DNA from: Thiomicrorhabdus sp. Milos-T2
Lineage (GTDB): Bacteria; Pseudomonadota; Gammaproteobacteria; Thiomicrospirales; Thiomicrospiraceae
NCBI RefSeq assembly: GCF_000702325.1
Contig: NZ_KL370891.1
Span: forward strand, 518,917-582,916
Direction: 5' to 3'
Length of the DNA stretch: 64,000 nt
Every line of letters begins with the position of its first letter. Position 1 is the first letter of the stretch. The notes beneath the pieces are model-generated. The model was given only the letters and a program-made list of their open reading frames with translations, was not told where the DNA came from and searched no databases. Below, piece after piece: positions 6,096 to 63,835 of this stretch. The translations under genes and the position numbers were made by a program.

Positions 6096-6137
6096 AGGTA
6101 ATTCAATCACTTATGTGAAATGAAGCCTGGCTTTTTT
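6091..6137. terminator. Bidirectional hairpin terminator between tRNA-Asn and the integrase gene
   Basis: AAGCCAGG (6091-6098) pairs with CCTGGCTT (6126-6133), followed by a T-run. A smaller hairpin, TCAC-TTAT-GTGA, lies inside the loop. It would end tRNA-Asn transcription and, read the other way, the integrase transcript. The outer arm starts in the att repeat but is completed by element DNA. Confidence 0.75.
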
Positions 6138-7161
6138 ATTGCCCATAAGAAACTGATGTAGCAGAAATTGTAGCAACCCCAGTCTCTGAGCGGTTTACAT
6201 AGCGTTTTAGGTGCTCATGGCTAAAATGAGCGTAGCGTTTGACCATTTTATAATCTGACCAACCGCCTAATTCTTGAAGTATTTCAATTGGCGTTCCTCT
6301 TTGAACATGCCAGGTTGCCCAGGTATGCCGTAAGTCATGCCAACGAAAATCCTCTAATCCAACTCTTTTACAAGCTGTCTTAAAAGCCCTAGTGTTTGCC
6401 CGACGGACTCCCTCACCTTTGTATGTAAACACCCGTTCTGGATTGTTCCCAACTTGGCGTTTAATGACCTCTATGGCTTTATCTGAAAGGGGAACGACAA
6501 AGGCCTTCTCACTTTTCAGAATGTCATCTCCTTCGATAAAAACAGCCCGCTGAGAGAAATCAACCTGTTCCCAACGGAGCAAGGTGACATTGGATTCTCG
6601 TAAGCCTGTTTCTAAAGAGAAGATAACCATATCGGCAAGGTGTGGAGGTAGAGCCAAAATTAATGTTTGTGCTTCTGACTCAGTTATCCAACGAACTCGT
6701 TTTTTCGGTTCCTTCAAGAGTTTTATATAGGGTGGAGAGCATTTCACTTCCCACTCCTTACTTGCTTTGTTCAAGACCGCTCTAAGTTTCTGAAGATGAC
6801 GGTTAACGGTAGCATTACTGGCACCATCTTTCAGTTTGTTCTGAATGATGGCATCAATGTGCATCCGTCTGATTTCATCGAGATACATATCTCTAAAATA
6901 TTGGTCAAGATAACGAAATAAACGAATCTCATTACCTTGGTCTTTATTTTGAGTTTCACGCATGAATCGAACGACCGCTTCTTGCCAAAGAAGGCGAGGT
7001 TTTTCCCCTAGTTGGAGAACTCGCCATAATTCAGCTTTTAGCAAATCGGTAAATTCTTGTGCTAATCTTCGGTCTTCAGTCCCAGTAGAGCGTTGTATTC
7101 TTGTTCCGTCTGGAGCGGTAAAGTTAGTCCACCAGATGTTGTTTCGGAGGTAGATTGACAT
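6136..7161 (-). CDS. Tyrosine integrase of the tRNA-Asn element
   Basis: Site-specific recombinase of 341 aa, the usual size for phage-type integrases. There is an N-terminal arm/SAM-like region. The catalytic domain has LETGLRESNVTLLRW (first Arg), WHDLRHTWATWH (HxLRH) and ELGGWSDYKMVKRYAH with the nucleophile Tyr. The active site looks complete. It lies head-on to tRNA-Asn with its stop about 50 bases from the tRNA end, as is usual for the integrase of a tRNA-inserted element. Its 5' end overlaps the upstream HTH gene by 100 bases in another frame, so the two are probably translated from one message. Confidence 0.95.
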   Translation of the reverse strand: MSIYLRNNIWWTNFTAPDGTRIQRSTGTEDRRLAQEFTDLLKAELWRVLQLGEKPRLLWQEAVVRFMRETQNKDQGNEIRLFRYLDQYFRDMYLDEIRRMHIDAIIQNKLKDGASNATVNRHLQKLRAVLNKASKEWEVKCSPPYIKLLKEPKKRVRWITESEAQTLILALPPHLADMVIFSLETGLRESNVTLLRWEQVDFSQRAVFIEGDDILKSEKAFVVPLSDKAIEVIKRQVGNNPERVFTYKGEGVRRANTRAFKTACKRVGLEDFRWHDLRHTWATWHVQRGTPIEILQELGGWSDYKMVKRYAHFSHEHLKRYVNRSETGVATISATSVSYGQ

Positions 7162-7382
7162 AATGATTCCTCATTGTTGTCAACAAACCCAACAACACTC
7201 TCAGAACTAGGATATTGTTTTCTGATATGTTGTTCAAGGTCTTGTTGAATGAATACCCACTTTCTTCCAAGTTTTCCACAGGGGATTTTTCCAGTCTGAG
7301 CCAGTCTTCTAACGGTTTCAGGGTTGCACTGTAAAAATTCTGCGGCTTGGTTGAGAGTGAGAGTTTTGATTGGCTCACTCAT
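7062..7382 (-). CDS. Helix-turn-helix DNA-binding protein (excisionase-like)
   Basis: A 106-aa protein. Residues about 8-55 form a MerR/excisionase-type HTH (TLNQAAEFLQCNPETVRRLA followed by a GKLGRKWVF wing). The C-terminal half is polar and without known features. Its last 100 bases overlap the integrase start, and it follows the replication gene by 5 bases. The likely role is to control excision direction or integrase expression. Length is greater than for a minimal Xis, so a pure regulator is also possible. Confidence 0.82.
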   Translation of the reverse strand: MSEPIKTLTLNQAAEFLQCNPETVRRLAQTGKIPCGKLGRKWVFIQQDLEQHIRKQYPSSESVVGFVDNNEESLCQSTSETTSGGLTLPLQTEQEYNALLGLKTED

Positions 7383-7387
7383 GGGAT

Positions 7388-8638
7388 TTACTCCTTCAAT
7401 TCAGTGTTATAACGAAGTGTTTTCTCTTTGGCTTTACCCTTGAGGTAATCCTCAATCGGTTTATCTTTCACAGTAAGGTGATAATCTTCCGCTTGATGTA
7501 GGAACTCGCCAAGCGCTTCCCCTAAATCGGTAATGCCTTCACGAGCCATGAAAGAACTGATTGCCGCTAGACCATTCACAAATAAAAACTGGTCATTAGG
7601 TAATCGTCTTTTGGTGACTACTTTTACAGCATCACAATCGGAGTTCGTACAAGAATCAGAAATATCTTTCCATGCATCATTGATAGGCCAGCGTGATTCA
7701 TTGCTGTCAGTCGTTGGGTTAACGAGTTGTAACCATTTTGTGGTTGCGTACTTCCAAAGAGCTGGGCTGAGTTCATTAATTTGATAAGGATTCATTAAGC
7801 CAACGTTTTTCAAGAATTCTCGTTTCATTTGAAACTCCATTCGCCAAACATCTGTTTTACCATCCCACCCCTGAGCTTCCCAAATAGGCTTTAGGTAGTC
7901 CTTCTTGGATTTAACTATCTCAAGGGTTTTATTGTATAAACGACCCATGACAACCCCTTTACCAATTCGCCAGCCAGAAGGGCGTTTATGTTGGTGAAAA
8001 CGGTCTATTTGAGACGCTCTAGTCTTCCATTGTTGAATATCAATGGCTTCAACCTTAAATTGAGGCAAGGGCATAAAGTCCATGCACAAATCTAAACGAC
8101 TAACTGAGGGATGACCTTTAACCTTTCCAAGTTTATAAACGATGTTATCGAGATGGCTCAGTACTTCATCTATTTTAGTGAAGGTGAGTAGCTCACTACT
8201 TATCTGTATATAGGCTAATGGCATAGAGGTAGACTCGCCACTTGATAGTTGAATAGTAAACCAGTTATCACTTAATACAAAAGAGAAGCGACCAGCGCCT
8301 TTAGGTTTGACTTCAAATTTATGCCCAGCGAAACTGATATAAGCTTCAGCCGCCACTTCTTTATTGAGGTGTTGAGCTTGCTTTTTAACGACGGTTAATA
8401 GTTCTTCAATCTGGGGGAGTATGTTGCCCCTATAAGATATGTACAAACTATCTACTGCACATCGTAAAGGTAGGGTATTTTTCTTATCTATGTATTTTGC
8501 AGGTGCTGTGTTACTAGGTGACGCACCAAGTTTATTGCACGATCGAGGTGTGCCTTGAGGTGACTGTGTTCCACAGTCATCCTTCAAGCCAGCACTCTCA
8601 CGCGCTCCAGTTTTTTGTTTATCTTCTGTATTAGACAT
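7388..8638 (-). CDS. Replication-initiation-factor-like protein
   Basis: A 416-aa protein resembling the Rep_trans/replication initiation factor family of rolling-circle plasmids and filamentous phages. The segment VSRLDLCMDFM matches the conserved core with metal-type acidic residues, and WRMEFQMKREFL fits the later family motif. The first 60 residues are low complexity and polar. It suggests that the element can replicate as a circle after excision. Assignment rests on motif reading alone and the catalytic Tyr was not pinned down. Confidence 0.72.
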   Translation of the reverse strand: MSNTEDKQKTGARESAGLKDDCGTQSPQGTPRSCNKLGASPSNTAPAKYIDKKNTLPLRCAVDSLYISYRGNILPQIEELLTVVKKQAQHLNKEVAAEAYISFAGHKFEVKPKGAGRFSFVLSDNWFTIQLSSGESTSMPLAYIQISSELLTFTKIDEVLSHLDNIVYKLGKVKGHPSVSRLDLCMDFMPLPQFKVEAIDIQQWKTRASQIDRFHQHKRPSGWRIGKGVVMGRLYNKTLEIVKSKKDYLKPIWEAQGWDGKTDVWRMEFQMKREFLKNVGLMNPYQINELSPALWKYATTKWLQLVNPTTDSNESRWPINDAWKDISDSCTNSDCDAVKVVTKRRLPNDQFLFVNGLAAISSFMAREGITDLGEALGEFLHQAEDYHLTVKDKPIEDYLKGKAKEKTLRYNTELKE

Positions 8639-8702
8639 TTCCTGTCTCCTTCAGTTAATTATTAAAGTAATTAACGTTGCAACGTTGGAGACAAATTTAG
8701 AG

Positions 8703-9515
8703 TTATTTTCTATTTATTTCACCGACACGTTTTGGTGCTTTCTGTGTCGTTAGAGAGTTTCTGATACGATTACACTCCCTATGAAAGCTATTTAGCTCCT
8801 TGTATTCTTCATAATACTGAAGAAGAAATTGTTCTCTTTCTTGTTCAGACATGAGATCAAAAACTTTAAAATCTAATAGAATAAAGATTGCGAAGGTCAA
8901 TTGTGGATATTTGACTTTTGGTTTTTTAGTTTTCGTCGGATAAAGAGCATTTGCGACATTGGTCAGTAACTTTTTGTTGTGTGTTATCTCGGCATCTTGG
9001 AGTTTAGTTTTAATAATTTCTGTATGTATAGCAGTACGATCAATTTCAAGAACTTGCTTTATTAGCGATCCATCTTGATCTTTTCCAGTAGCAATGTCTA
9101 ATAGAAGTCGATTGATAGGCTTTTTGTTATATAAGATAGATTCAAAATTTTTTACTAGGGATAAGATTGCAGCCGTTTGCTTACCTGAAATCTTTTTCGG
9201 TAAAGGCTTGCCAATAAACGGGATTGGAGGTGATACGATGTTAATAAGTTCTTCAAATGGGTTATCTGAGCTGTAGATTTTTTGAACATCTTCAACCATG
9301 TTGGTTGCAGTTAAGGACTCAAGAAGCTGTTTTGAGAATGGTTGTTGATAGTATTCATACCATGATGGTAAAACTTTACTGTTAAATTGTGCAGCGTCTA
9401 TAGGCGTGTTTTTTATTTCATCAATTAATGAGATAAGTTCTGGTACCATTTTTTGAATAATTTTATGAAATGAAGCATTAACATCAGCTATTTCTTTAGT
9501 CTCATTTATCTTCAT
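8703..9515 (-). CDS. Unknown protein, cargo of the tRNA-Asn element
   Basis: 270 aa, not recognised. It is mostly helical and charged, with a hydrophobic stretch (LTFAIFILLDFKVF) near residues 200-215 that is too acidic to be a sure membrane helix. The C-terminus is basic. Its ATG overlaps the stop of the upstream gene by one base (TAATG), so the two products are probably made in fixed ratio and may work together. Being accessory cargo in a small element, a defence or regulatory role is possible but unproven. Confidence 0.75.
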   Translation of the reverse strand: MKINETKEIADVNASFHKIIQKMVPELISLIDEIKNTPIDAAQFNSKVLPSWYEYYQQPFSKQLLESLTATNMVEDVQKIYSSDNPFEELINIVSPPIPFIGKPLPKKISGKQTAAILSLVKNFESILYNKKPINRLLLDIATGKDQDGSLIKQVLEIDRTAIHTEIIKTKLQDAEITHNKKLLTNVANALYPTKTKKPKVKYPQLTFAIFILLDFKVFDLMSEQEREQFLLQYYEEYKELNSFHRECNRIRNSLTTQKAPKRVGEINRK

Positions 9516-10264
9516 TATGATAAGTTTGCATCTTTAATTATTTGAGTGATGTCAACTTTAAAAGTATCCATTGCATTATGTGCCGTTGAACGTTCATATA
9601 AATCTAAATCTGGGTTTATAGGCTTTGGATCAATTGAGTTTTTCTTTCTTTCTTCAGGTGAAATACTAGTTTGTTGTGGATATCTGGTTCCGATACTTAT
9701 AAGATCTTTCAAATCATATTGGATTTTCAGTGTCGAAAGCTCGCCTGTTTCTTGTAAGTAGAGAAGGAATACGTAACCTACAGATAGAACTGTATTGACA
9801 ATTGGTCTAATAAGAGCCATCGAAGAAGGGCCACCAAGTAAATTTTCTTTTAAAAGGTTGTCTAGTTCATTGTTAATGGACCAGTCTTCATGAGCTGAAC
9901 CCGTTTGTTGTGATAGGTGACGAACTAAACCTTTATTTGTAAAAAGGTATTTTTTACCATTTAGACCTGCGATATGTTCCATGTACTCAGACAGGGTAAA
10001 TTTATTATCACTATTTTCTCTAATTGGAAAGCGATAAACAAAGTTGTAATGATCCATTAACTTTATGAGGAGAGGTTTATTTTGTCCTTGTCGTACAGCT
10101 AACAATCTCAATTTCCCTGCTATTTCGCCTGTGTAACGGAGATGGTTGTACTCATAAAAACATAAGTGAGAATATTCTTTTAATAACAATAAGTGATGGA
10201 AAAGCTTAAAAACAAGATCTCCAAGTTCTCGTTGTACTCTTTTTCGATTCGAAGCTTTGCCCAT
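9515..10264 (-). CDS. Unknown protein, partner of the downstream cargo gene
   Basis: 249 aa, not recognised. It starts MGKASNRKRVQREL, a basic N-terminus that could touch nucleic acid. A moderately hydrophobic patch (MALIRPIVNTVLSVGYVFLLYL) lies near residues 150-170. No catalytic motif was seen. Translationally coupled (TAATG) to the 270-aa gene, which argues for a two-component unit. Confidence 0.75.
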   Translation of the reverse strand: MGKASNRKRVQRELGDLVFKLFHHLLLLKEYSHLCFYEYNHLRYTGEIAGKLRLLAVRQGQNKPLLIKLMDHYNFVYRFPIRENSDNKFTLSEYMEHIAGLNGKKYLFTNKGLVRHLSQQTGSAHEDWSINNELDNLLKENLLGGPSSMALIRPIVNTVLSVGYVFLLYLQETGELSTLKIQYDLKDLISIGTRYPQQTSISPEERKKNSIDPKPINPDLDLYERSTAHNAMDTFKVDITQIIKDANLS

Positions 10265-10348
10265 TGAAATCCTACGTTATTTTTTATTTTTTGATAAATT
10301 AATGTCGAAGCCAATTTAGATTTTGGTGTTTATTAATATTACTTCTTG

Positions 10349-10756
10349 TTAAAAAATATTATACCTAGCTTGAATTTCATATTTTTTCAAATACATTATT
10401 ACTGCTATGGAAATTGCAATTCCAATTAATTGAAAAATCGTATTTCCTGCGCTCATCTCATCTCCTGGAAATATTGGAAATATTGAAATGAACCCTAACG
10501 GGATAGAAATTAAATATAGCCAAAAGGTAAATTGCCAGCCCCAAGATTGAAGAGTCCATAAGCCATAAACGGATGCTAATAGTAAAGCGCCAAAAATTAT
10601 AAAAACAAATGAAAGTAAACTAGCCCAAAGAGGGATTTCTGGAATAGCCGAAAATAATGAAAAAATTAATCCAGCGAAAAGAGATAGAAGGCCTGTTAAA
10701 GCGCTGTATATTGCAATGAGAGTTATGCCTGCGGTTTTTTGTTGGTTGGTGCTCAT
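10349..10756 (-). CDS. Small four-helix membrane protein
   Basis: 135 aa with four clear hydrophobic segments (about residues 10-30, 42-65, 72-95 and 105-125). A basic tail ends KKYEIQARYNIF. No catalytic motif is visible. It is the outermost gene of the tRNA-Asn element and may be cargo such as an immunity or stress factor; function is unknown. Confidence 0.7.
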   Translation of the reverse strand: MSTNQQKTAGITLIAIYSALTGLLSLFAGLIFSLFSAIPEIPLWASLLSFVFIIFGALLLASVYGLWTLQSWGWQFTFWLYLISIPLGFISIFPIFPGDEMSAGNTIFQLIGIAISIAVIMYLKKYEIQARYNIF

Positions 10757-11057
10757 ATAGAATCCATGTTTATAAGTAAAAAGTCTTATAGGATTAGATT
10801 ATTATGAAGGATCGATGTCAAGATAAATTTCGAAAAAATACTGATCGTTTAGTACTGTCGGAGTGTTTTTTGATGAGTTGTGTAAAGTAGGTTAAATTTA
10901 TATTTCAATATGAAAGAGTGTCTTTAAGTTGTTGAAATAATTTAATATAGTGGCTCATAAACCGAAGGTTATTGTATAAAGTACATTATAAATCGGTCTT
11001 AGTAGTTTAGAATGGTTGAGAGTGTTGCTAAGTTGTTGATATTATTAAAATAAGTGG
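10757..11057. other. Gene-free end of the tRNA-Asn element
   Basis: AT-rich and without a supported gene. It would contain the integrase arm-binding region next to the distal att site. Confidence 0.45.
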
Positions 11058-11114
11058 CTGTTAATCCGTATGTCCCTGGTTCGAGTCCAGGTTGGGGAGC
11101 CAAATTTTAAAGCC
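11058..11114 (+). repeat. Direct repeat / attachment site, distal copy of the tRNA-Asn 3' half
   Basis: Identical over 57 bp to 6039-6095. It carries the anticodon loop, T-arm, acceptor 3' strand and CCA but no 5' half, so it is not a tRNA gene. Confidence 0.93.
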
Positions 11115-11140: not shown

Positions 11141-11375
11141 TTTCTATTCTTTGTAACTCTTCATTGTTAAAAAATCACTCTATCACGATATTTCTGTCAA
11201 ACCTTGGTTCTCTCTGAATGAGGAGTTTTTTTGTTTAAAGTCTCTAGGATATATATTGGGATAGTCTTGAATAGGTGTTTTATGCTTAATTTTTAAGAGC
11301 GTGATATTCTCTATTTATTCACTTGCAAAGCGTTTATATTAAAGATGTGTTTTTTTGAAAAAATAAGGGGTTGAA
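11115..11375. other. Short chromosomal spacer between the two mobile elements
   Basis: About 260 bases without a gene beyond the terminator. It probably represents the ancestral spacer between tRNA-Asn and tRNA-Val. Confidence 0.5.
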
Positions 11376-11410
11376 GAGTGGATTCGAACCACCGACCCCC
11401 ACCATGTCAA
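11376..11410 (-). repeat. Direct repeat / left attachment site of the defence island (tRNA-Val 3' fragment)
   Basis: 35 bp identical to 63769-63803, which is the anticodon-loop-to-T-arm part of tRNA-Val. Identity ends in the anticodon loop. The outer side lacks the acceptor strand (GGGTTGAA in place of ACGACC), so this is not a working tRNA and may be a partly decayed or different original target. Confidence 0.85.
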
Positions 11411-11600
11411 TATGGTATTTCTATCTAAAGCTTTTATCTCTGGACCTGGTTGTAGTCTATTCTTCCCATGTTTACCGGGCTTTTCTTTGTCTTCTATTTT
11501 TACCGGTACGTTGCTTATTTGTATGTTTTTGATATTTATGGTTGCACATTGGGCTCAAGTGTGAAAAATAGAGAGTACAGAAAACAACCTCTATAATTAT
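11411..11600. promoter_or_regulatory. Left end of the island, upstream of the recombinase trio
   Basis: Noncoding. It contains TTGGGCTCAAGTGTG near 11550; the core TGGGCTCAA recurs twice (second time as TGGGCTCA) at 63672-63690 near the other end. Such end-shared motifs may be recombinase arm sites. No clear promoter boxes were assigned. Confidence 0.45.
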
Positions 11601-12263
11601 ATGATGAATTTCAAAATCACCGAATTAACATTTGATCAAGTTGCACTCAGTGAGTTGAGTGAAAAACATCCAATCTGGAAAGGCATTGAGCTCAAATCGA
11701 GTTACAAGGGGCTAGAGCCTAATGACTTATTCGATATGATGGAGAATAAGGTCATAGACGACTCCTGGATTGATTGGCTATTGATTAGTAATCCGATAGT
11801 AGTAACTAAAAGGCTACAAAGGAAATCTCAGCAGGCTTTAGGTGTTGATGCGGAAGAGGTAAAGCCAGGTTATTACCTGATTATGGGGTATACGAATTGG
11901 TTCTATGCAACATCTTATCTTGGTTATAAATATGGAGATAAAATCCTGTCTTCTTATAAAGTCCCCGTTCTAGTATTACCCTTGAGTCAAATTTCGTCAA
12001 AGACCAAGGATGCGATTATTTCTAATGAACTTTTTTTTCAATCAGTCCTTCAGAAGCCTAAAAACTACTATAGATATATGCAGGAGTATCTGGATAAAGA
12101 AGTCGGCTCTGTGTCTCAATTTATTAAAACATCCCAGGATCTTGCAAAGTTCGCAGGGGTCTCAAAATCTAACCTCGTAAAAAGAAACAATAGCGCTAAA
12201 GCTAAATCGCAGCTAGGAGCAGATGAGCTAACTATTGAAGGGGATGCGGATGCTAATGGCTAG
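11601..12263 (+). CDS. 220-aa first gene of the recombinase trio
   Basis: Not recognised by domain. Mixed alpha/beta composition with a basic C-terminal segment (about residues 180-205) that looks helix-turn-helix-like: DLAKFAGVSKSNLVKR. It overlaps the second gene by 8 bases (ATGGCTAG). Its position before two very large tyrosine-recombinase-like proteins at the end of a gammaproteobacterial defence island resembles the gamma-mobile-trio arrangement, where one of three proteins has no known activity. That comparison is from memory of gene layout and not from alignment. Confidence 0.75.
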   Translation: MMNFKITELTFDQVALSELSEKHPIWKGIELKSSYKGLEPNDLFDMMENKVIDDSWIDWLLISNPIVVTKRLQRKSQQALGVDAEEVKPGYYLIMGYTNWFYATSYLGYKYGDKILSSYKVPVLVLPLSQISSKTKDAIISNELFFQSVLQKPKNYYRYMQEYLDKEVGSVSQFIKTSQDLAKFAGVSKSNLVKRNNSAKAKSQLGADELTIEGDADANG

Positions 12264-14901
12264 TCATTCTTCAGTGATGGTAATCGAAGACGTCCTGAAA
12301 GAAACAATTGAACGCTTGAAGGTTGAAGCGGCAACTGGAACCAGTTATGACCTCCTAAACTTTATGGAAGAATCTGAACAAGCAGATCTCTCAAGATTGT
12401 TTTGCTTCTTACACGTTCCAGAGTCATTGAGAGGTTTCTACCATGCTAGCGAGTCTATTAAGTGCATTTTAGATTTGTTAGAGGAGCTCTCTAAAGAAAA
12501 GGAGTGTTGCTTAGAGCAAGTTCAGTCCTGGAAGAGTGTATTGGAAATCTTTCTGTCAAAAATCGATGAGCTTGATGAGAAACTACAACCTGATTTTCAT
12601 AGCCATGACTTGCGAGGGATTCTAAAAAAGTTTCCGCTCTATTCTGCTTTGTTCTACTTAAGCGGCAGTGAACTTTATCTACACAAACAGATTATATTTC
12701 CAGTTTTAGCCATTGTTTTTATTCGCAACACATTTGAGATAGAGGACGATAAATATTATCAAATTTCTAAATCGATAAGATACCTAGAAACGACTAATCC
12801 AGATGGCTTGGCTGAATTTCAGAATGATGAAAATAAACCTATCTTAACTTCGATTTATCAAAACCTATCATTAAAGGAATCGTCTAAAAAGCTTGAAACA
12901 CTTTTGAATTCGATTGGTTTGAAATCTGCTGTAAAAATTGTTAGAAATAAAGGCTTTATCAATCCCAGAAAATCAAAGCATGGGATAAGGGGATTGTCTG
13001 GAAAAATTAAAGGCCGCTTTCCATTAGTTTCAGTTAGAGGAAGGTTGCCGCAATTTGCGAATACAGAGTTTGAAATTGAAGAGTTTGGTCTAGTAAAACA
13101 GGAATATTACTTTCCAAAAGACATTGAAGAAAGAAAAGATAGCGATATCTACGGTGTTGACGTTATGGATCATGTTTTGGATATCTCTATTTCGGTACCA
13201 TTGACAAGTTTAGTTATGCAAGACGCGCATCACAGAGGTTCTAAGGTTAGGCCTGAAAATGAAATGGATGTGCGTAAAGTCCGTACCCATGCTAAAAGAA
13301 TATCTGAATCATGCATAAGAGCTGCTCAGACATTGAAGACAGATACCGGTCTCATTGATGAATTTACACTAGAGCAATTTTTGCTAGATTTGGTAAATTA
13401 TTCTGAAAAAAAATTTAGCCCAAATGAGTTTAGTCCCAATCAAATTCCTGAGCCATTAATAGCTGCAGTCCTTGGTGTAATGCTGTTTAGAGGGCGAAAA
13501 ATTGAGATGGCTATATCGACAAGAAGAACAACATTAAAAGCAATGGCTCCAGGTTGTTATTTTTTAACCCCTAAGCAGGGTAGGCAGGTTGCTTTTTGGT
13601 CGGAAGAGTCCCCTTTGGTTACCAATAATAGAGCTTCGGTAGCAACAGAATCTGCGAGTTCAGTCTATACTTTACCTATAAATAAGTGGTTGACTGACTT
13701 ATTGATTAAGACACAAAATATTCGGGATCAGATTTTACTATTGCCAGGTTATGATTCTCCTGAATTCATTGAGTCCTCAAAAAAACTAGGTTTTGTTTGG
13801 ACGGATAAAGATTTTAAAGAGAGTATCGAAACCTATCTAAGTAATTTAAGGAGAAGGCATGGCTTGCCAAGTTTGAGTTTGGTAATGATCCAGGGTTACT
13901 TGGAAAAGAAAGCCTTGGTTGAATATGATCCTGTTCTGAGTTCTTATTTCACCTCTAAGGATAACCAGCATTCGCATAGTCAAATGCACTATACACGTTT
14001 TGAAATTTCTTATTTACAATCAAAGTATGTTGAATTGTGGGATAAAGTTGTATTCGGAATGCAATTTAGTAATTCTGATTTTGAAAAAATAAATGATTGG
14101 CCAAGCTTGGATTCTAAAGAATATATTGGATCTAAATTTTGCCCAAAGCCTGAAATTATTCGAGAATTAAATCAGCAATTAATAAATGATTTAAGCGGAA
14201 TTGAGTTAGAAAGTTTTCAAGAGATTATTGAGTATCACAATTCATACAGTCTATATACGCTGTTATCTTTTTCTTTTGCAACGGGGTACAGGGGCGTTCA
14301 TCAAGTGATGCCTCATTGGAGGCTAATAAGTCCTGATATGAGATTTATATCTATATCTGATAAGGACGATTTAGATTCAACCCATGCAAGAGTGGTGTAT
14401 TTAGTTGAAAGAATAAGGCAGCAACTCCTAAATTATATTGAGCATGTTAAGGCGCTCTTAAAAAAGTTGTTAGAAATCAATTTTAATTTGTATAAAAAAG
14501 TTTTGGCGCAACTCTGGGATTGGCTTAATGCCCAGGAGTATAGAACCTCATCAGGCCGATTTTCATTAAGTGAAATAGATGTTACCGTCTTCTTTCATAT
14601 TGATCAAAAAAATAAGATTTCTTTACTTTCATTAAATAATTTCTTTAATTCATTTAAAAAGAATAATCATGTTGATATCCCGATTAATGCAGGTCGTCAC
14701 GCGTTAAGATCAAAGCTTTTTCAAGAACGAGTTCCTTCAGATGTGATTGATGCTTTTTTAGGGCATTTTATACAAGGGCTGGAACCTCATTCAGACTATT
14801 CTGCATTTAGTTCAAGCCTGTTGGAAAGCGAGTTAGAATCGATTATCAATAATCACATGGAAGTAAATGGATTTGAACTTATTAAGTCGAGGTTCTTATA
14901 G
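12256..14901 (+). CDS. Large tyrosine-recombinase-like protein, second gene of the trio
   Basis: About 881 aa from the ATG at 12256 (MASHSSVMV), which overlaps the previous stop; an ATG at 12235 would extend it by 7 codons. The C-terminal quarter has tyrosine-recombinase motifs: SFATGYRGVHQV (first Arg), AGRHALRSKLF (HxxR) and LGHFIQGLEPHSDYSAF (GH then Tyr). The first 600 residues are unlike simple integrases, with basic segments likely to bind DNA. It would act with the adjacent 882-aa protein to move the island into tRNA-Val. Much longer than the 300-450 aa of common integrases. Confidence 0.85.
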   Translation: MASHSSVMVIEDVLKETIERLKVEAATGTSYDLLNFMEESEQADLSRLFCFLHVPESLRGFYHASESIKCILDLLEELSKEKECCLEQVQSWKSVLEIFLSKIDELDEKLQPDFHSHDLRGILKKFPLYSALFYLSGSELYLHKQIIFPVLAIVFIRNTFEIEDDKYYQISKSIRYLETTNPDGLAEFQNDENKPILTSIYQNLSLKESSKKLETLLNSIGLKSAVKIVRNKGFINPRKSKHGIRGLSGKIKGRFPLVSVRGRLPQFANTEFEIEEFGLVKQEYYFPKDIEERKDSDIYGVDVMDHVLDISISVPLTSLVMQDAHHRGSKVRPENEMDVRKVRTHAKRISESCIRAAQTLKTDTGLIDEFTLEQFLLDLVNYSEKKFSPNEFSPNQIPEPLIAAVLGVMLFRGRKIEMAISTRRTTLKAMAPGCYFLTPKQGRQVAFWSEESPLVTNNRASVATESASSVYTLPINKWLTDLLIKTQNIRDQILLLPGYDSPEFIESSKKLGFVWTDKDFKESIETYLSNLRRRHGLPSLSLVMIQGYLEKKALVEYDPVLSSYFTSKDNQHSHSQMHYTRFEISYLQSKYVELWDKVVFGMQFSNSDFEKINDWPSLDSKEYIGSKFCPKPEIIRELNQQLINDLSGIELESFQEIIEYHNSYSLYTLLSFSFATGYRGVHQVMPHWRLISPDMRFISISDKDDLDSTHARVVYLVERIRQQLLNYIEHVKALLKKLLEINFNLYKKVLAQLWDWLNAQEYRTSSGRFSLSEIDVTVFFHIDQKNKISLLSLNNFFNSFKKNNHVDIPINAGRHALRSKLFQERVPSDVIDAFLGHFIQGLEPHSDYSAFSSSLLESELESIINNHMEVNGFELIKSRFL

Positions 14902-14906
14902 GCTTC

Positions 14907-17555
14907 ATGGATACTCAAGGAATGGAAGACTTAGATAAAAATCTGACTGAAGAGGAACTAGCCTACCAAGCTATTTTGGAGCAGGCCTTTGACTTTTGGT
15001 TGTTTGAATTGTCGAAGGATAATGAAAACATAACATGGACAGAACGTAAGAAGGATATTCTACTGCTTGTAATTGATGCTATTTTAAAAGATATTCAGCC
15101 TGAAAAAAGGTCAATTGAAGAGGTTACATTACCGGATAAAAGAATAAATTATAAAAGGGTAAACAGTCGTTTATTTAATAAAAAACTTGATGCCTATTCT
15201 CAAGGCGAAGTGTCGAATATGTTGGCAAGAGTTTTTCGATACGCGGTTGAATATTTAAATTGGAAATCAGCCTCTGATATTGAAGTAAAAGTCGTACAAA
15301 ACAGGGTTATACCGCATGTGCGAGAAACAGAGATGTATAACGCACATTACGAAAAATACTACACTCAAATTTTAGATGATGCTTTATTTGATTTTAATGA
15401 AACAGGTGGGCACAAATTATTTGCTTGGACTGTATTAAGTTTGATTTCTGATTCTCATGTATTCAATCGAAATGAACTTAATGCTATTCTTCGTAGTTCT
15501 TCAGCTGAGGTTTTTCAACTAGGTGATAATGAGCCAAGATTGTTAATTACAAACCAAGAGCAAAGAATGAGTAAGAAGTTGCATTTAAGGTCTTGGTTAT
15601 TTCTTTTAAAGTTTTGGAACAACGGAGGACTGGAAAGTCTTTTTTTAAACATCGATGACTATGACTTAAAACAAATATCTGATAGATGCTTGTTGAGAGA
15701 AATCAAACGGTTTTCCAAGAAGTTTAATATCAAATTTTTGATTCCTAGACAAATGGGTCAAATAATCGATGTCGTTGCAGCAAATATTTACCTAAAACGT
15801 CCATCAATGTTGCATGCAGTTTCAATCGGTAAAAAACCTTTCACTGAATTAAAGCCTGAGACTTTGTACCGAATCATAACTGGAAATAGAGTTTTGCACG
15901 AACGTGTAAATTCTGATGTTAATGAAAGTCCAAAAATAGATTCTGAAATTGACGATTTAAATGACGGTGAGGATAGCGATGCAAGCCAGTTGATTGCCCC
16001 CCAGTCATTACAAGAAAAAAGAATAAGACAGATTCGAAAAGTTTTGCGGAGTATCGGAAAGAAAGATTCTGTTACTTTTTTAGAAAATAAAATTAAACAA
16101 GATCATCAGTCATCATTAATGGTTTTATGGTTAATGAAATGGCTTTTATTTCTTTATCGCAGAGCTCAGAGCAATGAACTGTCAGATGAGAGTATAAAGC
16201 GTTATTTTTACAGACTGGCATATTTACTTATAGCCGCTTTTGACAACCTCAATCTTTTAGAGCTTGAAGAAGAAGATTGGATGGACTTGCTTCAAGAAGT
16301 GCTTGATAACTCCAACGATAAGCAAGTTGGAACTTATTTAACGTTTTATATTAGCTATCTAAATAAAAACATGGGGCTAATGAAGCTACCTTTGCATGAG
16401 TTAGATGGTATTGATTTTAATGGCTCAGTTAATGCCAATGTACTTACGCCTTTTGAAGCAGTTAAAGTTTATCATGCTCTATCTGAAGATGATGTTTTTG
16501 AAAAAACGACTATAACCTGTAGACAAATAGCTCTCATATTGGGGTACTTTTGTGGATTAAGAAGACGAGAGATATGGAAGTTAAGAACCATTGATATTTA
16601 CGGGCGCGATGATGCTCTTTTTTTATTTGTTAGGTCGCACAAGGCGAGAAAGTTAAAGAACTTTTATTCAAGAAGAAGGATACCACTTGCTCAATTGATC
16701 CCCACGTTTCTTCTGAAGCATGTGGTGGCTTGGTGGAAAGTTAGAAAACAATCTAATGGTGTTTATTTTATTTCAGATAGTCCCTCAGAACCGGCTAATG
16801 AAAAAGATATTTTCGATTCAGTTCAAGTGGCATGTAGAAAAATTACTGGAGACCATACGTTCGTTTTTCATGGACTGCGGCATAGTTTTGCAAATTACTT
16901 TATGATTAAAGTAATGCAGGTGCCGTACCCAGAATTAGCCAGGTTATTTGGGTGTAAAAAAATATTGCAAGATGTGGAGGAAGTTCGGGAGTTACAAGAA
17001 TTTTACTCTAAAGGGGCATCAGCAGATTTAATCAGTTATTTCTTTCCAAGAGAAAATCAAACATTACCTCGATCAACGCTGATGCAGTTGGCTATGCTTT
17101 TAGGCCATAAGGTTCCAGACACGACTTTTAAGAGTTATTTGCATATATTTCAAGAAATTGTTCCTGAGTTTTATGAGCCTTTAAGTCAAGCACAATATGC
17201 GTTTTTATTTAAGTCCTTTTTTGTCACATCGCAAGATTCTTCTGTTAAAGCCTCTCGAATAAAAAAAACTTATCTCAATGAGGATAAAAGTTTTAACGAG
17301 CAATATATTAAAATTAAGATTGTATGTGACCTAATTTCGTGTCATGAAATACCAGTGCCAGGGTTTAAAGAGTCGGAAGATCTGGAGTTAATAACGAATG
17401 AGGGAATCGAAAGTAAATCATCGTCAATTTATGAAGAGATAATACGGGTTTTACCCAAGGCTCAGAACCTTCTACAAAGTTTGATGCAAAATTCAATCGG
17501 TGTTGAGGAGCTTTCAAAAATTTATGGGGTGAGTTGTAGACAGTCAAGAGGTTGA
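14907..17555 (+). CDS. Large tyrosine-recombinase-like protein, third gene of the trio
   Basis: 882 aa. Catalytic motifs are clearer than in its neighbour: YFCGLRRREIWKLR (Arg), FHGLRHSFANYF (HxLRH) and MLLGHKVPDTTFKSYLHIF (GH and nucleophile Tyr). An extra 60-70 residues separate HxLRH from LGH. A long N-terminal region includes an acidic linker (EIDDLNDGEDSD) near residue 345. It begins five bases after the stop of the second gene. Two divergent recombinases side by side suggest a heteromeric integrase, one perhaps acting as a structural or directional partner. Confidence 0.88.
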   Translation: MDTQGMEDLDKNLTEEELAYQAILEQAFDFWLFELSKDNENITWTERKKDILLLVIDAILKDIQPEKRSIEEVTLPDKRINYKRVNSRLFNKKLDAYSQGEVSNMLARVFRYAVEYLNWKSASDIEVKVVQNRVIPHVRETEMYNAHYEKYYTQILDDALFDFNETGGHKLFAWTVLSLISDSHVFNRNELNAILRSSSAEVFQLGDNEPRLLITNQEQRMSKKLHLRSWLFLLKFWNNGGLESLFLNIDDYDLKQISDRCLLREIKRFSKKFNIKFLIPRQMGQIIDVVAANIYLKRPSMLHAVSIGKKPFTELKPETLYRIITGNRVLHERVNSDVNESPKIDSEIDDLNDGEDSDASQLIAPQSLQEKRIRQIRKVLRSIGKKDSVTFLENKIKQDHQSSLMVLWLMKWLLFLYRRAQSNELSDESIKRYFYRLAYLLIAAFDNLNLLELEEEDWMDLLQEVLDNSNDKQVGTYLTFYISYLNKNMGLMKLPLHELDGIDFNGSVNANVLTPFEAVKVYHALSEDDVFEKTTITCRQIALILGYFCGLRRREIWKLRTIDIYGRDDALFLFVRSHKARKLKNFYSRRRIPLAQLIPTFLLKHVVAWWKVRKQSNGVYFISDSPSEPANEKDIFDSVQVACRKITGDHTFVFHGLRHSFANYFMIKVMQVPYPELARLFGCKKILQDVEEVRELQEFYSKGASADLISYFFPRENQTLPRSTLMQLAMLLGHKVPDTTFKSYLHIFQEIVPEFYEPLSQAQYAFLFKSFFVTSQDSSVKASRIKKTYLNEDKSFNEQYIKIKIVCDLISCHEIPVPGFKESEDLELITNEGIESKSSSIYEEIIRVLPKAQNLLQSLMQNSIGVEELSKIYGVSCRQSRG

Positions 17556-17710: not shown

Positions 17711-18259
17711 TCATTTTTTCATCAATCTATAAACACTGGGAATGCTGATTCCATACTTTAGAGCCAAATCCTTTACTAAAATTCCCGATTGACGTTCCAA
17801 AATCATTTGCTCGATTTTTTCTTCTGACAGTTTTTTCTTTGCTCCGAATTTTACGCCTTTAGATTTAGCTTTCTCGATACCTTCAATTTGTCTTTCTTTA
17901 CGAATCTCAGTCTCAAATTCTGCAATGCTGGCAAGCATATTAAAGAGGAGCTTTCCTGTTGGTGTAGTGGTGTCAATTTTTTGATCCAAGACTACAAAAT
18001 CAACATTCTTTTCTTCAAGCTGATTAACTATTTTCGTCAGATGAAATGTTGAGCGGGCAAGACGATCAAGTTTTGCAATGACAAGGCTATCTCCTTCTCT
18101 TAGGTACTCAAGACAGTTTTGTAGCTGTGTACGATTGGCAGTGGTACCACTAACTTTCTCCTCGAAAATTTTATTGCAACCATATCGTTTGAGCTTTTCC
18201 ATTTGCACGTCTAATTTTTGTCCAACACTTGATACGCGAGCATAACCAACAACTGCCAT
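17711..18259 (-). CDS. Serine recombinase, resolvase/invertase family
   Basis: 182 aa from the ATG at 18259 (MAVVGYARVSS). A TTG two codons earlier is possible. The N-terminal catalytic domain shows YARVSSVGQ with the active serine, KLDRLARS and the E-helix TGKLLFNMLASIAEFE. The C-terminus is a Hin-like HTH (LALKYGISIPSVYRLMKK). Size and layout match resolvases and invertases. It sits between the trio and the large defence operon and may resolve cointegrates or invert DNA. No pair of inverted crossover sites was identified nearby. Confidence 0.93.
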   Translation of the reverse strand: MAVVGYARVSSVGQKLDVQMEKLKRYGCNKIFEEKVSGTTANRTQLQNCLEYLREGDSLVIAKLDRLARSTFHLTKIVNQLEEKNVDFVVLDQKIDTTTPTGKLLFNMLASIAEFETEIRKERQIEGIEKAKSKGVKFGAKKKLSEEKIEQMILERQSGILVKDLALKYGISIPSVYRLMKK

Positions 18260-18373
18260 TATCAAGACCTCTAATGCTTTCTAATAACTAAATTATAAGA
18301 CATAAAATAATAACCCTGAAGCATAATTCTCACAATGTATACATCATGAGAATCTTATCGAAGAGTAAGGCGT

Positions 18374-21199
18374 TTATTCGTCTTCAAATTCGGCACTACT
18401 AAACTTAAGAACATTGCAGTTTTCTTTGATAGTTCTTTGCAGAGACTCATCAAAACCGTCTTTCAGTTTAGCTTGAATTTCAACAGAGATTGAGACATTG
18501 ACCCCAAGTTTTGAAGTGAACTGTTGCACAATTTCATCCATAATCATGGCAAAGTCCATTTTGGCTTTGATTGGATCAAGTTCGACTGTTCCATAGAACT
18601 GATTTTTAATAGCTGCTATTACTGGCTCAGGATCAATTGGCTGAATAGGACCTGTTTTAGCACCATCATGGTCATCTGGTGAAGTCGGATCTGTATTGCC
18701 ACCTGTTGGAGAAACTGGTTGTGGGGTCACTGGAGCAGGTTTTGTTTCTTCTTTATATTTTTCAGCCGCTTCACGTTCGATTAAGATCGAGGATTCATCA
18801 ATCGATAAAATTGTGTTTCTGCCAAATACAAATCCGAGATACTTGTCTTGATCTTTACCCGCAGCATATCCAAAAAAATCTTCAGTTTCTAATCCTTGTC
18901 TGATGGCATTCTCAAAAACATGACTATTTGTCATTCTAGGTAAGTACAAATAATTACAGCTATCCTGCCAAACCTTTAATGCATTAACTTCGGAAGAATC
19001 TTTAAAGTACCATTGCTCAAGCAATCTTTTTAAGAAAACGGGACTCCAGTCAGAAATCAGCCATTCTTCTTCACGAAGTTTTGTTTCAATTTCTGAAATC
19101 AAGTTAGTCGCAGCTGGAGAAACAGAAACCGACTCCCAAGTTAATTCAGGCTTGCCTTTAATGAAGTCTTCAACGGGGCAGATCAGCCATTTATAAGCTT
19201 CTCGGACAATTTGATTCAAACTCTGTTCTGCCCCGGCAGTATTGCGCTCAGCAACTTTTTTTAAAGACATAGTTAAATCTAATTTGCCTTCCGAAACATC
19301 TCGATCAATACTTCTCCATGCAAGGTAGGTTTTTGCAGCATCTTTTAAACGATTCACTACATCATAGTCCGCAGCAAAGAAAATCAGCCGGTTTTGCTTT
19401 TGTCTTGGTTGTTCACCTCGATTTCTTAAAATCTCTTCAGCAGCACTATATGCTTGATTAGACTCTCCTCGACTGTAGGCTTGGCTTGGCGATAACACTA
19501 CTAACCTCGGGCCATTACCATAGTCATCAGGAACATCCGCTGATGGCGTAAAAACATGAATACCAGCAAAAGAATGATTACGTCCGAAGACTCGACTAAC
19601 TCTTTCTTTAAGTAAAGGCTGAAGTTCTTGAAGATCGTTAATATTTTGTTTACGACTCTCCATCTCACGACGTAGATTTGGACGCGTGTCTAAATAAAAC
19701 CGATCATGTTCAGCATATAGATAATGCAGCTTATCTCTGAGACGATTCAACACATCTTCAAATACACCGGTGGTCTGTTCTGGCTGAGCACACCCCAATA
19801 AAATATGTTCGATATTAACACCTTTTACACCCTGAGCGTTATTAGATGGCGCACTACCTAAGAAAATCGTTCTCATTGCGCGACGAGCAGCCTGCACGCT
19901 ACCAAATCGAGTATCTCGACCATCAATATCAAAAGGCTCTGAACGACTACCATCCACTTCTTTTTCTAGGACGGGCTCCCAACCTTGTGGCAGGTAATGA
20001 ATACTCTTGTTTCGTACAACACTATCATCCAGCGGAATAGATCCCGGCATAATCAAAGCGTCTTGATTGTTGTCATTCCATAGGCGGTGAATCACGACCG
20101 CCATGTACTGAAGTACGCCACGGGTACGTTGGAATTTATCCAGTGTGGACCAATCTTCATACAGACGGTCAAACACTTCGGGATGAATTGGGTAAGACTG
20201 GCATAAACGCTCATAATAGACGTTCGATTGAGTTTCTAACGGAAATTTCGTACTGTTAGCACGATAGAAATCTGAAAATTGACGACTAATTCCTTCTACC
20301 TGTGCTCGATCCCCTGCATCTTCAAACAAACGACGACGTACAATTTCAAATGCTTCTGTTGAAGCAACTGGCTTCCATACAGATTCAACACGCGCAAAAT
20401 ACTTTTCTAGCGATTCTAAGGCTCGCTGTCCCATCGTGCCGCCGACTTCTAGTTCAGACTCTGGAAGAGACGCAAGTAGAATCGCATTGGGCACGGATTT
20501 TAAAGCCTCAGTCAACGCTTGAATAAAGGAAATATTACTGTCAAAAGAACCCGCTTTATAATGCTGACCAACTTCTAACTGGCGAATAAAAGCGACCAAC
20601 TCATCCATTAAAATTACACAAGGTGCTGCTTTCTCAATCACCTGGCGAATCGTTTCTTTACCAGGAGAAGTACCAGAAGTATCACTATCCGCCACCATGG
20701 CATAGCCTTCTTCACCAAGCAATTGCCAAGCAAGTTCACCCCATAAAGTATTTGTTAAAATCGCTCCGTGGTTTTGTGGCTGGCTTGGAGATAGCTTGAT
20801 TCCATCTATTACAGCAACTTTGGCAGAAGGCAATTCTGTGATGTTCGCTTCGTCTAAAATTGGCGGAATGCCATCAAGTTTATCTGTACTGACTTTGCGA
20901 GAGGCCAAGTGTAAAACAGCCAGCATAGTATGGGTTTTACCACCACCAAATGCCGTTTGTAGTTGAATAACAGGGTCACCACCATGTCCAGCTAAACGCT
21001 CGGCAACGGTGCGTAATAATAAACGCATCCCTTCAGTAATAAAGGTACGGGCAAAAAACTTTTCCGCATCTTGATATTCCGGCGTCGCGGTTCCTGAAAC
21101 TACCTGGGAAATATCCGCTGCAAACTCGGATTGTTTAAATGTACCTTCCAAGACATCTTTATGCGGTTTTGCGATTTCACGCCAAGGTTTTAAACTCAT
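18374..21199 (-). CDS. DUF499 P-loop ATPase, anti-phage operon
   Basis: 941 aa. The Walker A motif reads [12 protein letters not shown] near residue 88 and the Walker B motif [11 protein letters not shown] near 200, both typical of DUF499 ATPases. A proline/threonine-rich linker (about residues 800-845) separates a C-terminal domain. DUF499 genes are repeatedly found next to DUF1156 methyltransferases and large helicases in defence islands. Here the methyltransferase starts 12 bases upstream. It is the last gene of a six- or seven-gene minus-strand operon. Probably a motor or regulator of a DNA-modification-guided defence complex; direct activity is unknown. Confidence 0.88.
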
Positions 21200-21210
21200 A
21201 ATTACTTTCC

Positions 21211-24057
21211 CTAAAATTCCAATCCAATTTGTTCGTCTCTGAGACCCGCTTCAGTGGAAGCGGCGACGATGGCGTGCCATGAACCAATCAGTTCGTTATA
21301 GACTCTCGCATCGTCTGCCCATTTTTTGCGTTCGCATAGTGTGTAGAGGTGATAGGCTAGCTGGCGGATTTGCTCGCCACGCTCAGGCATACGAGCCAAT
21401 AATCCTCCGGCGGCGCTTTCACCTTGTTGATTGAGCACACGAATCATTTGGTGGCACGCTTCCCAAATGGGCATACGATCATCGGTTTTTGGGTCCCATT
21501 CGGTTGGATAGTCTTGCCATTTCATCAATTTGACTTTACCGCCACCGGATTCAATTACGCCGGCATTTTGCACACCATCGACCGTAGTGCCCTTGGCACG
21601 CGCTAAGGTATCGGCTTCACCAAATGGCCCTAGGCTCCAGCCATATTGTGCAAACCAATCATCACAATACAGGGTATCGGCATCAAAATCACCTGAATCT
21701 GGATTCAAATGCTCGGTGATCGCTTTATTAATCAGTACCAAAGCATCATGAACCGACATTTCTGAGCCATCTTGATTGAGAATCGCAGAGTATTTGGAAT
21801 AAATCGCCATCCCCGGACCAATCGCCGCTTGCGCTAAATCCACCGGCTCAATGGGCGAAGCACCGGCTTCACCGCCAATCATCGCCTCTAACGCATCGGG
21901 CATTTCTGAGCGGAGTTCTCGTTGAAATTCTCGCCGAGAAATAGTCGCGGCTTCAACTTCTCGGCGACGGCAGACAAGCACTACAGACGAGGCCAGAGCG
22001 TTTGTTCCATTTCCAATAGCTCTACCTACTTTTTCAGTTCGAACTGGCCAAGTCCCATCAATAGAAAAGCCGGCTTTAATCACCGCTGCTAAAAAAGTTT
22101 CCCAACCAGTGCTTGCGGTACTGTCGTCTTTGGTTTCAGACTGCTTAAAGGCATAGTAGATGGTCACTGGAAAAGCTGGATGCCCTTGGATCGAAAGCTG
22201 CCTCATCGCTTTAGTCATTCCATCCAAAAAAAAGTTTTCTGCTACTTCTTTAGTGCCATGTCTAAATTTTAATGCTGTTAGTTCAGCTTCTTTTGGGACA
22301 GCAACCGTTGAGAATAATTCTGGATATAAATCTTTAAGGAGTTTGCGCTGAAAACCATAGAAAAAATCAGATAGATCCGCATAAGCAATATTGTCATAAT
22401 AAGGTGGGTCAGTTGAGATAACTTTATTTAAAGACAACTCTTGTGTTGTAGCATTTTTTTGTTCAGCAAATCCGGCAATATTCATCCCCAACGAATCAAA
22501 ACTTTTAATCAGCCTTTCAAATAGATTTTTTATGCTACCAGTAGAGTTGGAAAAAGGATTTACTTCTGCAAAGTCCCAAGCCATAGGTATTGCTTGTCTA
22601 GCAAAGACTGACCTCATTTGATTATTTGGTGCATTCCAACCACAAATGGAAGCACCATGATTTGCAATCTGGCTAATAAGAAAAGAAAGATATGTTTTTA
22701 TTGCTTTTTCGTACTCGAAGTTGGAACTAACTTTAAAATTTTCTAAAATATCAATTATTTCATTTAAAACAATGAGTTGTCGGTTTGTAAAAACACTTCC
22801 CCATGTCTCAAGCCCATAGGAGAAGCATGTTCCTCCAGTAAGCTTAGCTGGCAGTGGTAATGAAGATTCCCAGCCTCTAGGTATTGATAAAGCAACGTTT
22901 TCATGTTCAGAGTTCGGAGATATAAACAACCTCTCTTTTTTCCCTTCTGCAACAACACACATCAAACGTTGAGACATATTACCGTTTTTAGCTTCTTTTT
23001 TTACGTAGCTTAAATCTATTGAAATACCACTATAAATACACTTGAAAGCATTTCTTGATAACTTTGTTCCTTCCTTTTTTACTTTCCAATCAGAAGTTTT
23101 ACCTTTATGGACTGAAAAGGAAAAATCCACTTCATTTTGTACAATATCAACATAAGCTTCTTTATTTTTTTTATCAGAAACTACAAATGATGAAACCAGA
23201 GGTGTATAGCGGTCTCTAAACGCAGGGTTGGGACTCTTAACCGTTCTTGCCCACAGCCAAGCAATCACAGTCAATTCTTGTCCTAAATAAGGTTTTAAAT
23301 CTTCGCGCTCGGCTACCATATCCGCCGTGATTTTAATTTTCGGATAGAGGTGTCCAATGCGCTTTTGCGCTTCTTCGCGCATCCAATGCCCATAACGGCG
23401 TACATCTTCCGCAAGACCTTTGGCGCCTTCCCAATTTTCGACCAGGCCTGGTTGTTTATCTCCTTGTGGAATCGGGCCAATCGGAGTTTGACCCGCAAAT
23501 TTCGGTGGAATTTCAATCATTGCCTTATTAATCATGACTGGCACAGGATTTAAATCAGACGCATAACTCTCTAAGCCCAAACGCTGAGCTTCAAGTGGAA
23601 TCGCACCACCTCCGGCAAAAGGATCATGGAATGCTGGTAGTTTTTCTGAGTCAAATAACTCTGACGCTTGCGGATGGTTTTTATTCAATTCACAAGTTTG
23701 ACGCCAACTGCGCTTAATCGCATTGCGGGCACGATTCAACACTTCTTCATTGTTGGTATTTTCCCACTTCACCAAATCCCGAATAATATCGAATAGGACT
23801 TCACGCTCACGGATAATTTGCAGTTTGGTCTCCCGACGGCGCTTATCGCCTTCCACCGTTTCAGATGGATCATTGACCATTTGCGCAAAAATCACTGCAC
23901 GAGCCGCGGCTAAAGGCCGTCTTGCCCACCATAAATGCAAGGTACTCGGATGCCCATGACGAATCGACTTCTCACGAGCCGCCGCCGCATTAATATCATC
24001 CAGTGGCAAAGCCACTTCAATCAGTTTTTTATAAGATTTGGTTTTAGGTTCAGACAT
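21211..24057 (-). CDS. DUF1156 DNA methyltransferase
   Basis: 948 aa. The N-terminal part has the family opening with [20 protein letters not shown]. The SAM-binding motif [18 protein letters not shown] lies near residue 143, and the catalytic motif [15 protein letters not shown] near 550. Order and motif type fit an amino-methyltransferase that modifies adenine or cytosine amino groups. A variable AT-rich middle part lies between the motifs (about residues 290-520) and probably recognises the target. It would mark host DNA for the system encoded with DUF499 and the SNF2 helicase. Base composition drops sharply in that middle part (22.4-23.1 kb), suggesting domain exchange. Confidence 0.92.
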
Positions 24058-24074
24058 GGTATTTTCTTGTTTTT

Positions 24075-36894: not shown

Positions 36895-38088
36895 CTAAAT
36901 ATCGAGTCGGTTGTCATTAAGATCTAATCTAGAACTAAGTAATGTTTCAAACGCAGAGCCATCCTGTCGAGTAAGGTTAGGCACATATCGTGAATAGACC
37001 TGAAAAAGCATTTTGGTTGTGGTGTGTCCCATTTGGCGCGCAATCCATTCAGGGCTTTCTCCTGCTGCTAGCCACAGGGTCGCAGCTGTATGCCTAGTTT
37101 GATAAGGTCTTCTCTTATTAAGGTTGCAACGTTTTAGTAATGGATACCAGATTCTTTTAGTGACATTGCGATGGTTTAAGGTTTTTCCTTCACGGTTAGT
37201 GAAAACCCACAGGCTAAGCCCAGTTCTTTCTTTTTGTCTTAAAAATGCTTCAAAAACTGGTGTAGACATTTGTATGTCTCTGAATGACTCAATGGTCTTG
37301 CCTGTTTCTTCTCGACCGTTTACGATGGTTTCTCTTATTAGGATAAGGCGATTTTTTAAGTCAACGTATTTCCACTTTAAACCGTCGATTTCACCTGTAC
37401 GCATTCCTGTAAAAAACCGAATCAAGTAATAGTCACGAAAATCAGCGGGGCAATACTTAAGCAAAAGTTGAACTTCCTCTAAAGAGAAAGGCTCTACATC
37501 GGTTTTATTTACCTTTAATGCTTTGATATTTTGATAGGGGTTGTTAAAATCAAATCGGTCAGCCGCATCAGTAAATATCATGCGAATAATCGTCATGATG
37601 TGGTTAATTCGGTCAGCAGAAAGCCCAATCTTTTTTCCGTTCTTAACTTTGGCGAGTGAGGCACGGAATTGAAGAATTTTTGCTTTAGTGATGTAGCTGA
37701 CTTTTGTATTACCAAATGTCTTATTTAGATAACCTTTGATAATTTGTTCAACATTCTCCTTATAAGAGCGTTTCCATCGAATTTCGTTTTCTTCAAACCA
37801 AACTTTTGAAAAATCTTCAAACAGTGGTGTTTGGTCAGAGTACTGGTCATACCTTTTTTGGTTGCTGTGTTCATCAAATTTTTTGGCATTAAGGCTATCT
37901 GAAAAATAGTGCGAATAAACAAAAGTACCTAGTTTTATTTCTGCATCAATTCGATCCATAACCTTTTGCATTTTTCGTCGGTTTGAAGCGGTGTCCTTGA
38001 ACTCTGAATATTCGCGACATCGAGTTCCTTTATATCTAAAATCAAAAAACAGTTGTTCATTGGATTTTCTAACTCTTACGCTACCCAT
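36895..38088 (-). CDS. Tyrosine integrase with DUF3596-type arm domain
   Basis: 397 aa. The N-terminus (GSVRVRKSNEQLFFDFRYKG) is an arm-binding domain of the DUF3596 kind. Catalytic motifs: FFTGMRTGEIDGLKW (Arg), YQTRHTAATLWL (HxxR-type TRH) and QMGHTTTKMLFQVYSRY (GH and Tyr). The active site is complete. The upstream excisionase-like gene overlaps it by 8 bases. No att repeat of its own was recognised nearby, so its element may be degraded or merged into the island. Confidence 0.94.
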   Translation of the reverse strand: MGSVRVRKSNEQLFFDFRYKGTRCREYSEFKDTASNRRKMQKVMDRIDAEIKLGTFVYSHYFSDSLNAKKFDEHSNQKRYDQYSDQTPLFEDFSKVWFEENEIRWKRSYKENVEQIIKGYLNKTFGNTKVSYITKAKILQFRASLAKVKNGKKIGLSADRINHIMTIIRMIFTDAADRFDFNNPYQNIKALKVNKTDVEPFSLEEVQLLLKYCPADFRDYYLIRFFTGMRTGEIDGLKWKYVDLKNRLILIRETIVNGREETGKTIESFRDIQMSTPVFEAFLRQKERTGLSLWVFTNREGKTLNHRNVTKRIWYPLLKRCNLNKRRPYQTRHTAATLWLAAGESPEWIARQMGHTTTKMLFQVYSRYVPNLTRQDGSAFETLLSSRLDLNDNRLDI

Positions 38089-63758: not shown

Positions 63759-63835
63759 TGGTACGACCGAGTGGATTCGAACCACCGACCCCCACCATGT
63801 CAAGGTGGTGCTCTAACCAACTGAGCTACGGTCGT
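63759..63835 (-). tRNA. tRNA-Val (GAC), island insertion target
   Basis: 77 nt with encoded CCA. Acceptor arms ACGACCG and CGGTCGT pair fully, and the anticodon loop TTGACAT gives GAC. Its 3' half from the anticodon loop is repeated at 11376-11410. Confidence 0.97.
63769..63803 (-). repeat. Direct repeat / right attachment site within tRNA-Val
   Basis: 35 bp identical to 11376-11410, covering the T-arm, variable loop and anticodon loop of tRNA-Val. The tRNA on this side is intact, as expected when an island supplies the 3' end. Confidence 0.85.

Follow-up and report, generated by a model that had tools for sequence, protein, structure and literature searches.

Some integrative elements depend on several recombinases at once. 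In GInts, a multi-tyrosine-recombinase operon (ginABCD) marks one end of an island with variable cargo, and all gin genes are required for both excision and integration (PMC5385486). For SEs, the recombinase genes that were tested are needed as well (PMC10214605). Here, we compare with such systems a locus from Thiomicrorhabdus sp. Milos-T2, analyzed within a stretch of 64,000 nucleotides that we refer to as the window. A sequence-only reading had noticed three consecutive genes (X, Y, and Z) and had described them as a recombination trio just inside the end of an island, two of whose products resemble tyrosine recombinases of unusual size, in an arrangement reminiscent of gamma-mobile-trio (GMT) islands. 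With a probability of roughly 0.6, X-Y-Z belongs to an integrative element that targets the anticodon loop of tRNA genes, and serves as one of its two recombination modules, each placed at one end.

Two adjacent tRNA islands lie in the window: one of 5 kb in tRNA-Asn and a defence-rich one of 52 kb in tRNA-Val(GAC). Relatives without the 52-kb island have the order galU-side flank, tRNA-Asn, tRNA-Val, and tRNA-Leu. The larger island has an empty site in relatives, along with a regenerated tRNA at one end and a displaced tRNA fragment at the other. The repeat that connects these ends had been proposed to be tRNA derived, and it is identical to the tRNA-Val gene over 35 bp (Table 1); no chance copies arose in shuffled sequence. 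The fragment matches the tRNA from the anticodon loop to the T arm only and has no acceptor stem. The repeat kept by conventional islands at the same tRNA-Val site is 50 to 53 bp long. The 220 bp to the left of the fragment (11155 to 11375) matched none of the relatives' empty sites. Gene X begins 190 bp inside the left end. In the tRNA-Val islands of three genomes of the same genus (G027, G051, and G022), a conventional integrase of 422 to 441 aa lies approximately 160 to 200 bp inside the displaced fragment and reads inward, with paired short repeats readable just 5' of the gene in all three. X-Y-Z fills the slot held by this integrase.

The tRNA-Asn island (6039 to 11114) is bounded by 57-bp direct repeats (6039 to 6095 and 11058 to 11114) and holds a 341-aa integrase (6136 to 7161, minus strand) together with several uncharacterized open reading frames. 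In the larger island, a serine recombinase with a resolvase N-terminal domain and a helix-turn-helix (17711 to 18265) lies directly 3' of Z and is convergent with it. The island also carries an Hma defence system (HmaA, HmaB, and HmaC; 18374 to 29592), with a Septu pair (PtuA/PtuB) nested between its genes as identified by PADLOC. Between 38754 and 53882, a CARF-type RtcR-like regulator adjoins a type I restriction system, with a Zorya type I operon beyond it.

Table 1. Features of the tRNA-Val island, in positions of the window
Feature	Position	Strand	Remarks
Displaced tRNA-Val(GAC) 3' half	11376..11410	-	Left island end; cut at anticodon loop; 35-bp perfect direct repeat of 63769-63803
Arm-type site-like 9-mer TGGGCTCAA	11550..11558	+	About 40 bp 5' of X
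Promoter-like hexamers TAGAGA-17-TATAAT	11569..11597	+	Just 5' of X; consensus match only
Gene X	11601..12263	+	220 aa; no detectable relatives
Gene Y	12256..14901	+	Large divergent tyrosine recombinase; 881 aa from ATG, 888 aa if from TTG at 12235
Gene Z	14907..17555	+	Tyrosine recombinase, 882 aa; full R-K-HxxR-H-Y set; insertion between HxxR and GH
Int	36895..38088	-	Arm-type tyrosine integrase, 397 aa; Arm-DNA-bind_2 and Phage_integrase domains; conserved partner of YZ modules
Two tandem copies of TGGGCTCAA	63672..63691	+	11-bp period; inside right end
Intact tRNA-Val(GAC)	63759..63835	-	Right island end

The three open reading frames are present exactly as first reported, all on the plus strand and with Y counted from 12235. 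The likely start of Y is the ATG at 12256. Because this start overlaps the end of X and because Z begins 5 nt past Y, the three genes are tightly coupled. Z matched the Pfam family Phage_integrase (PF00589) over residues 512 to 665 (E = 1e-9) and has the complete catalytic set of the tyrosine recombinase superfamily, conserved in alignments (R552, K584, H655-x-x-R658, G733-H734, and Y744). For Y, the match to the same family reached only E = 0.02 (residues 668 to 844). Its catalytic region is C-terminal (approximately residues 565 to 872 of the 888-aa reading), and R686, K710, H822-x-x-R825, and G843-H844 are conserved in alignments. The description of X-Y-Z as a recombination trio at an island end, with two large tyrosine recombinases and a tRNA-derived repeat, holds up. 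The R, HxxR, and GH-Y motifs claimed for both recombinases are all found in Z; Y has R, HxxR, and GH, and the placement of its tyrosine varies within the family. Specifically, the tyrosine follows GH by 11 residues in the Y of the window and two close relatives, by 20 residues in most other homologs, and at neither distance in two members, and no aligned member has both. This inconstancy counts against the main reading, and a relocated nucleophile in the Y family is one possible explanation of the alignment.

In a profile search of solved structures, Z matched mainly chains of the XerC/XerH/Int type, and Y matched nothing. For Y and Z, AlphaFold models built with 4 and 3 sequences, respectively, had pLDDT values of 35 and 34. 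X had no match in Pfam, NCBIfam, PADLOC, or PHROGs, single-sequence searches with X and Y found no match on plasmids, and a search among phage records was also without a match. A scan of viral contigs recovered only ordinary phage integrases of 270 to 295 aa.

Homologs of Y and Z recur together, either as neighbors with overlapping or touching reading frames or fused as one protein of 1683 to 1807 aa. Within the order, 12 of 63 genomes carry such a pair or fusion, which totals approximately 1700 to 1800 aa; others occur elsewhere among the proteobacteria and on plasmids of Acinetobacter. The boundary between the genes lies elsewhere in Gallionella (loci L101 and L102) and in genome G204, where Z carries the catalytic part of Y as a fusion. 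In L101, L102, and L053, the Y catalytic domain and Z together make up 1278 to 1320 aa, behind a separate protein of 521 to 829 aa. The fusions and shifted boundaries suggest that Y and Z are obligate partners. R, K, HxxR, and GH are conserved in both families, as is the terminal tyrosine in Z. Y and Z are members of a divergent family of large tyrosine recombinases that occur paired or fused. Two points about X count against the main reading: it has no homolog, and most YZ modules lack a recognizable X-like gene.

In 10 of the 24 modules examined, including that of the window, the DNA 5' of YZ contains one half of a tRNA gene, severed at the anticodon loop. The distance from tRNA half to module is 212 to 297 bp in nine of these 10 and 648 bp in G029. 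The displaced piece is a 3' half in the window (Val), G013 (Arg TCT), and G204 (Met CAT), and it is a 5' half of tRNA-Phe(GAA) in G031, G033, G016, G029, G042, G017, and the second module of G013. Displacement of either half fits the nearly symmetric anticodon stem. In G013, two copies of tRNA-Arg(3' half)-tRNA-His (150 bp, 97% identical) enclose a complete island of 44.8 kb. The left end of the X'-YZ' module on Acinetobacter plasmids is exact: it falls approximately 145 bp before X', and the plasmid DNA beyond it is unrelated. This end stays sharp across many plasmid contexts, and a comparison between L127 and L140 yields one matched pair of left sites, occupied and empty. We searched for a right end in the DNA around the Acinetobacter modules and did not find one. 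Locus L122 has two copies of the left end (at 5707 and 7906), 2.2 kb apart and the outer one without recombinase genes, which suggests a tandem insertion.

The sequence-only reading, which correctly picked out the trio, missed the integrase Int, which makes up the other half of the system. Counting matches at E values up to 1e-40, we found the Int subfamily in 15 of the 17 genomes with YZ (five of the 17 are from outside the order) and in one of the 21 genomes without YZ (Fisher P = 1.3e-7). This test ruled out our first thought, based on the integrase slot, that X-Y-Z was the only recombinase of the island. The single control genome with a partner Int (G005, C1:2365003-2366148) has no detectable Y or Z and could hold a more diverged pair. 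When both are on the same contig, Int lies 3' of YZ on the opposite strand, so that the two converge, in 10 cases and at distances of 0.1 to 37 kb (G000, G013 C4, G016, G029, G030, G031, G033, G062, G116, and G305). The sole exception is contig C20 of G013 (L018), where the YZ copies are duplicated and rearranged. Two YZ modules stand back to back on this contig, and an identical second copy of one Z gene is found 19 kb away.

In six islands (G013 C4, G016, G029, G031, G033, and G062), 0.75 to 0.82 kb separate the start of Int from the intact-tRNA end, whereas Int of the window is 25.7 kb from the intact tRNA. Approximately 25 kb of cargo, comprising the CARF regulator, type I restriction, Zorya, and other genes, therefore seems to have entered between Int and the tRNA. 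No separate att site was found beside Int when we searched 38.1 to 38.8 kb. Exact copies of TGGGCTCAA number only three in the window, and each lies near one or the other island end; a comparable pattern arose in 82 of 20000 shuffles.

Because tRNA halves lie 5' of many YZ modules and because Int co-occurs with YZ, converges on it, and in six islands starts close to the intact tRNA, we regard the trio as one end of a conserved element. Comparison among islands shows the architecture, the partnership, and the target of this element. Its plan runs from a displaced tRNA half to inward-reading (X)YZ, then cargo, and then Int, which reads inward from beside the intact tRNA. We lean slightly toward recognizing a new class of integrative element in which three tyrosine recombinases are split between two ends, Y-Z (in some cases as one protein of ~1800 aa, in others accompanied by X) by the displaced half and an arm-type Int by the intact tRNA, and which inserts at the near-symmetric anticodon stem-loop with displacement of either half. 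The family is apparently undescribed; in a search of the open-access literature, we found no paper on this arrangement.

By analogy with the multi-recombinase GInts and SEs, we hypothesize that Y and Z are distinct catalytic subunits. Together with an Int bound to arm sites, they would cut and rejoin both ends during excision and integration. The long N-terminal regions of Y and Z, along with X, may supply end recognition or assembly. From the catalytic residues of Y and Z and the precedent of GInts and SEs, we infer that strand exchange is carried out jointly by Y, Z, and Int.

In the leading alternative, Int needs no help to integrate and excise the island at the anticodon loop, and YZ(X) contributes a second recombination function that is inherited along with it and lies outside integration, such as resolution, copy number, cargo capture, or stabilization. 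Int has a standard arm-binding domain, and tandem arm motifs with an 11-bp period occur at the intact-tRNA/Int end in four of the six islands examined. Furthermore, the same tRNA-Val hosts conventional islands with a single integrase, so that Int could integrate alone. We nevertheless consider this account rather unlikely. A passenger would have no need for the place where YZ is repeatedly found, at the very end of the element and by the displaced tRNA half, and genomes with the partner Int subfamily almost always have YZ as well. The Acinetobacter modules bear on both accounts. In the stretches examined there, we saw no Int of the window's subfamily, which counts against a three-recombinase element; however, YZ' marks an element end in this DNA, which counts against Int acting alone. 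The two-module reading is also strained by the window itself, where Int is far from the intact tRNA and the displaced fragment is incomplete.

The missing acceptor stem and the unmatched flank at 11155 to 11375 would also suit a decayed or passenger element that landed near the island end by chance. We find this improbable, because the reading frames are open, the coupled starts and catalytic residues are all intact, and many genomes show this placement, at four different tRNAs in all. If the two-module reading is true, islands that are now annotated only as "hypothetical" and "site-specific integrase" gain a recognizable anatomy and exact ends, which would make the transfer of defence islands in these bacteria traceable. 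It also raises the question of why a giant recombinase with two active sites is maintained at one end, when the single integrases of neighboring strains serve the same tRNA.

A diverged GMT system is a very remote prospect: the locus shares with GMT two tyrosine-recombinase proteins, a protein of approximately 200 aa, defence cargo, and in GmtZ a recombinase of similar length, but it has no detectable sequence relation to GMT, and its gene order, anticodon-loop target, and partner Int differ. Specifically, the GmtY model (NF040693 of NCBIfam; cut-off, 340 bits) matched neither X, Y, nor Z at E values up to 1. Through GmtY we found a real GMT locus (L117), which encodes GmtY, GmtZ, and GmtX of 441, 908, and 200 aa in the order Y-Z-X. 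Y and Z had no profile similarity to its GmtY or GmtZ, and X had no BLAST similarity to its GmtX. NF040694 was considered as a GmtZ model and rejected as unrelated. The kinship first proposed thus finds no footing, and the remark that both recombinases are twice the usual size holds for Y and fails for Z, because GmtZ itself has 908 aa.

Like GInts, the element has several tyrosine recombinases at an island end and variable cargo. In GInts, however, three integrases and GinD, a small HLH protein, are encoded at the same end, the att repeats are short, and the examples given use sites in protein genes. Here, the operon consists of X-Y-Z only, two large recombinases occupy one end, the third is distal and convergent, and the targets are tRNA anticodon loops; we draw this distinction from the published description. 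SEs have a similar left-end operon of two tyrosine recombinases and an accessory protein, followed by cargo. Going by their description, SEs carry intA-tfp-intB-srap between imperfect terminal inverted repeats of 13 to 19 bp and form a strand-biased circle that leaves no empty site; the element here has direct tRNA-half repeats, a distal Int, and different gene content. Tfp of SEs is catalytically blank, and Y probably is not. RIT elements and Tn554 also have several tyrosine recombinases in a row (PMC10214605). As described, these are set apart in having no arm-type Int at a second end. Their recombinases are much smaller than Y and Z. Finally, the classic tRNA islands of the Islander set likewise have a regenerated tRNA at one end and a displaced fragment at the other (PMC4383910). 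Compared to these single-integrase islands, the element described here has an additional Y-Z pair beside the displaced fragment, and either half of the tRNA can be displaced.
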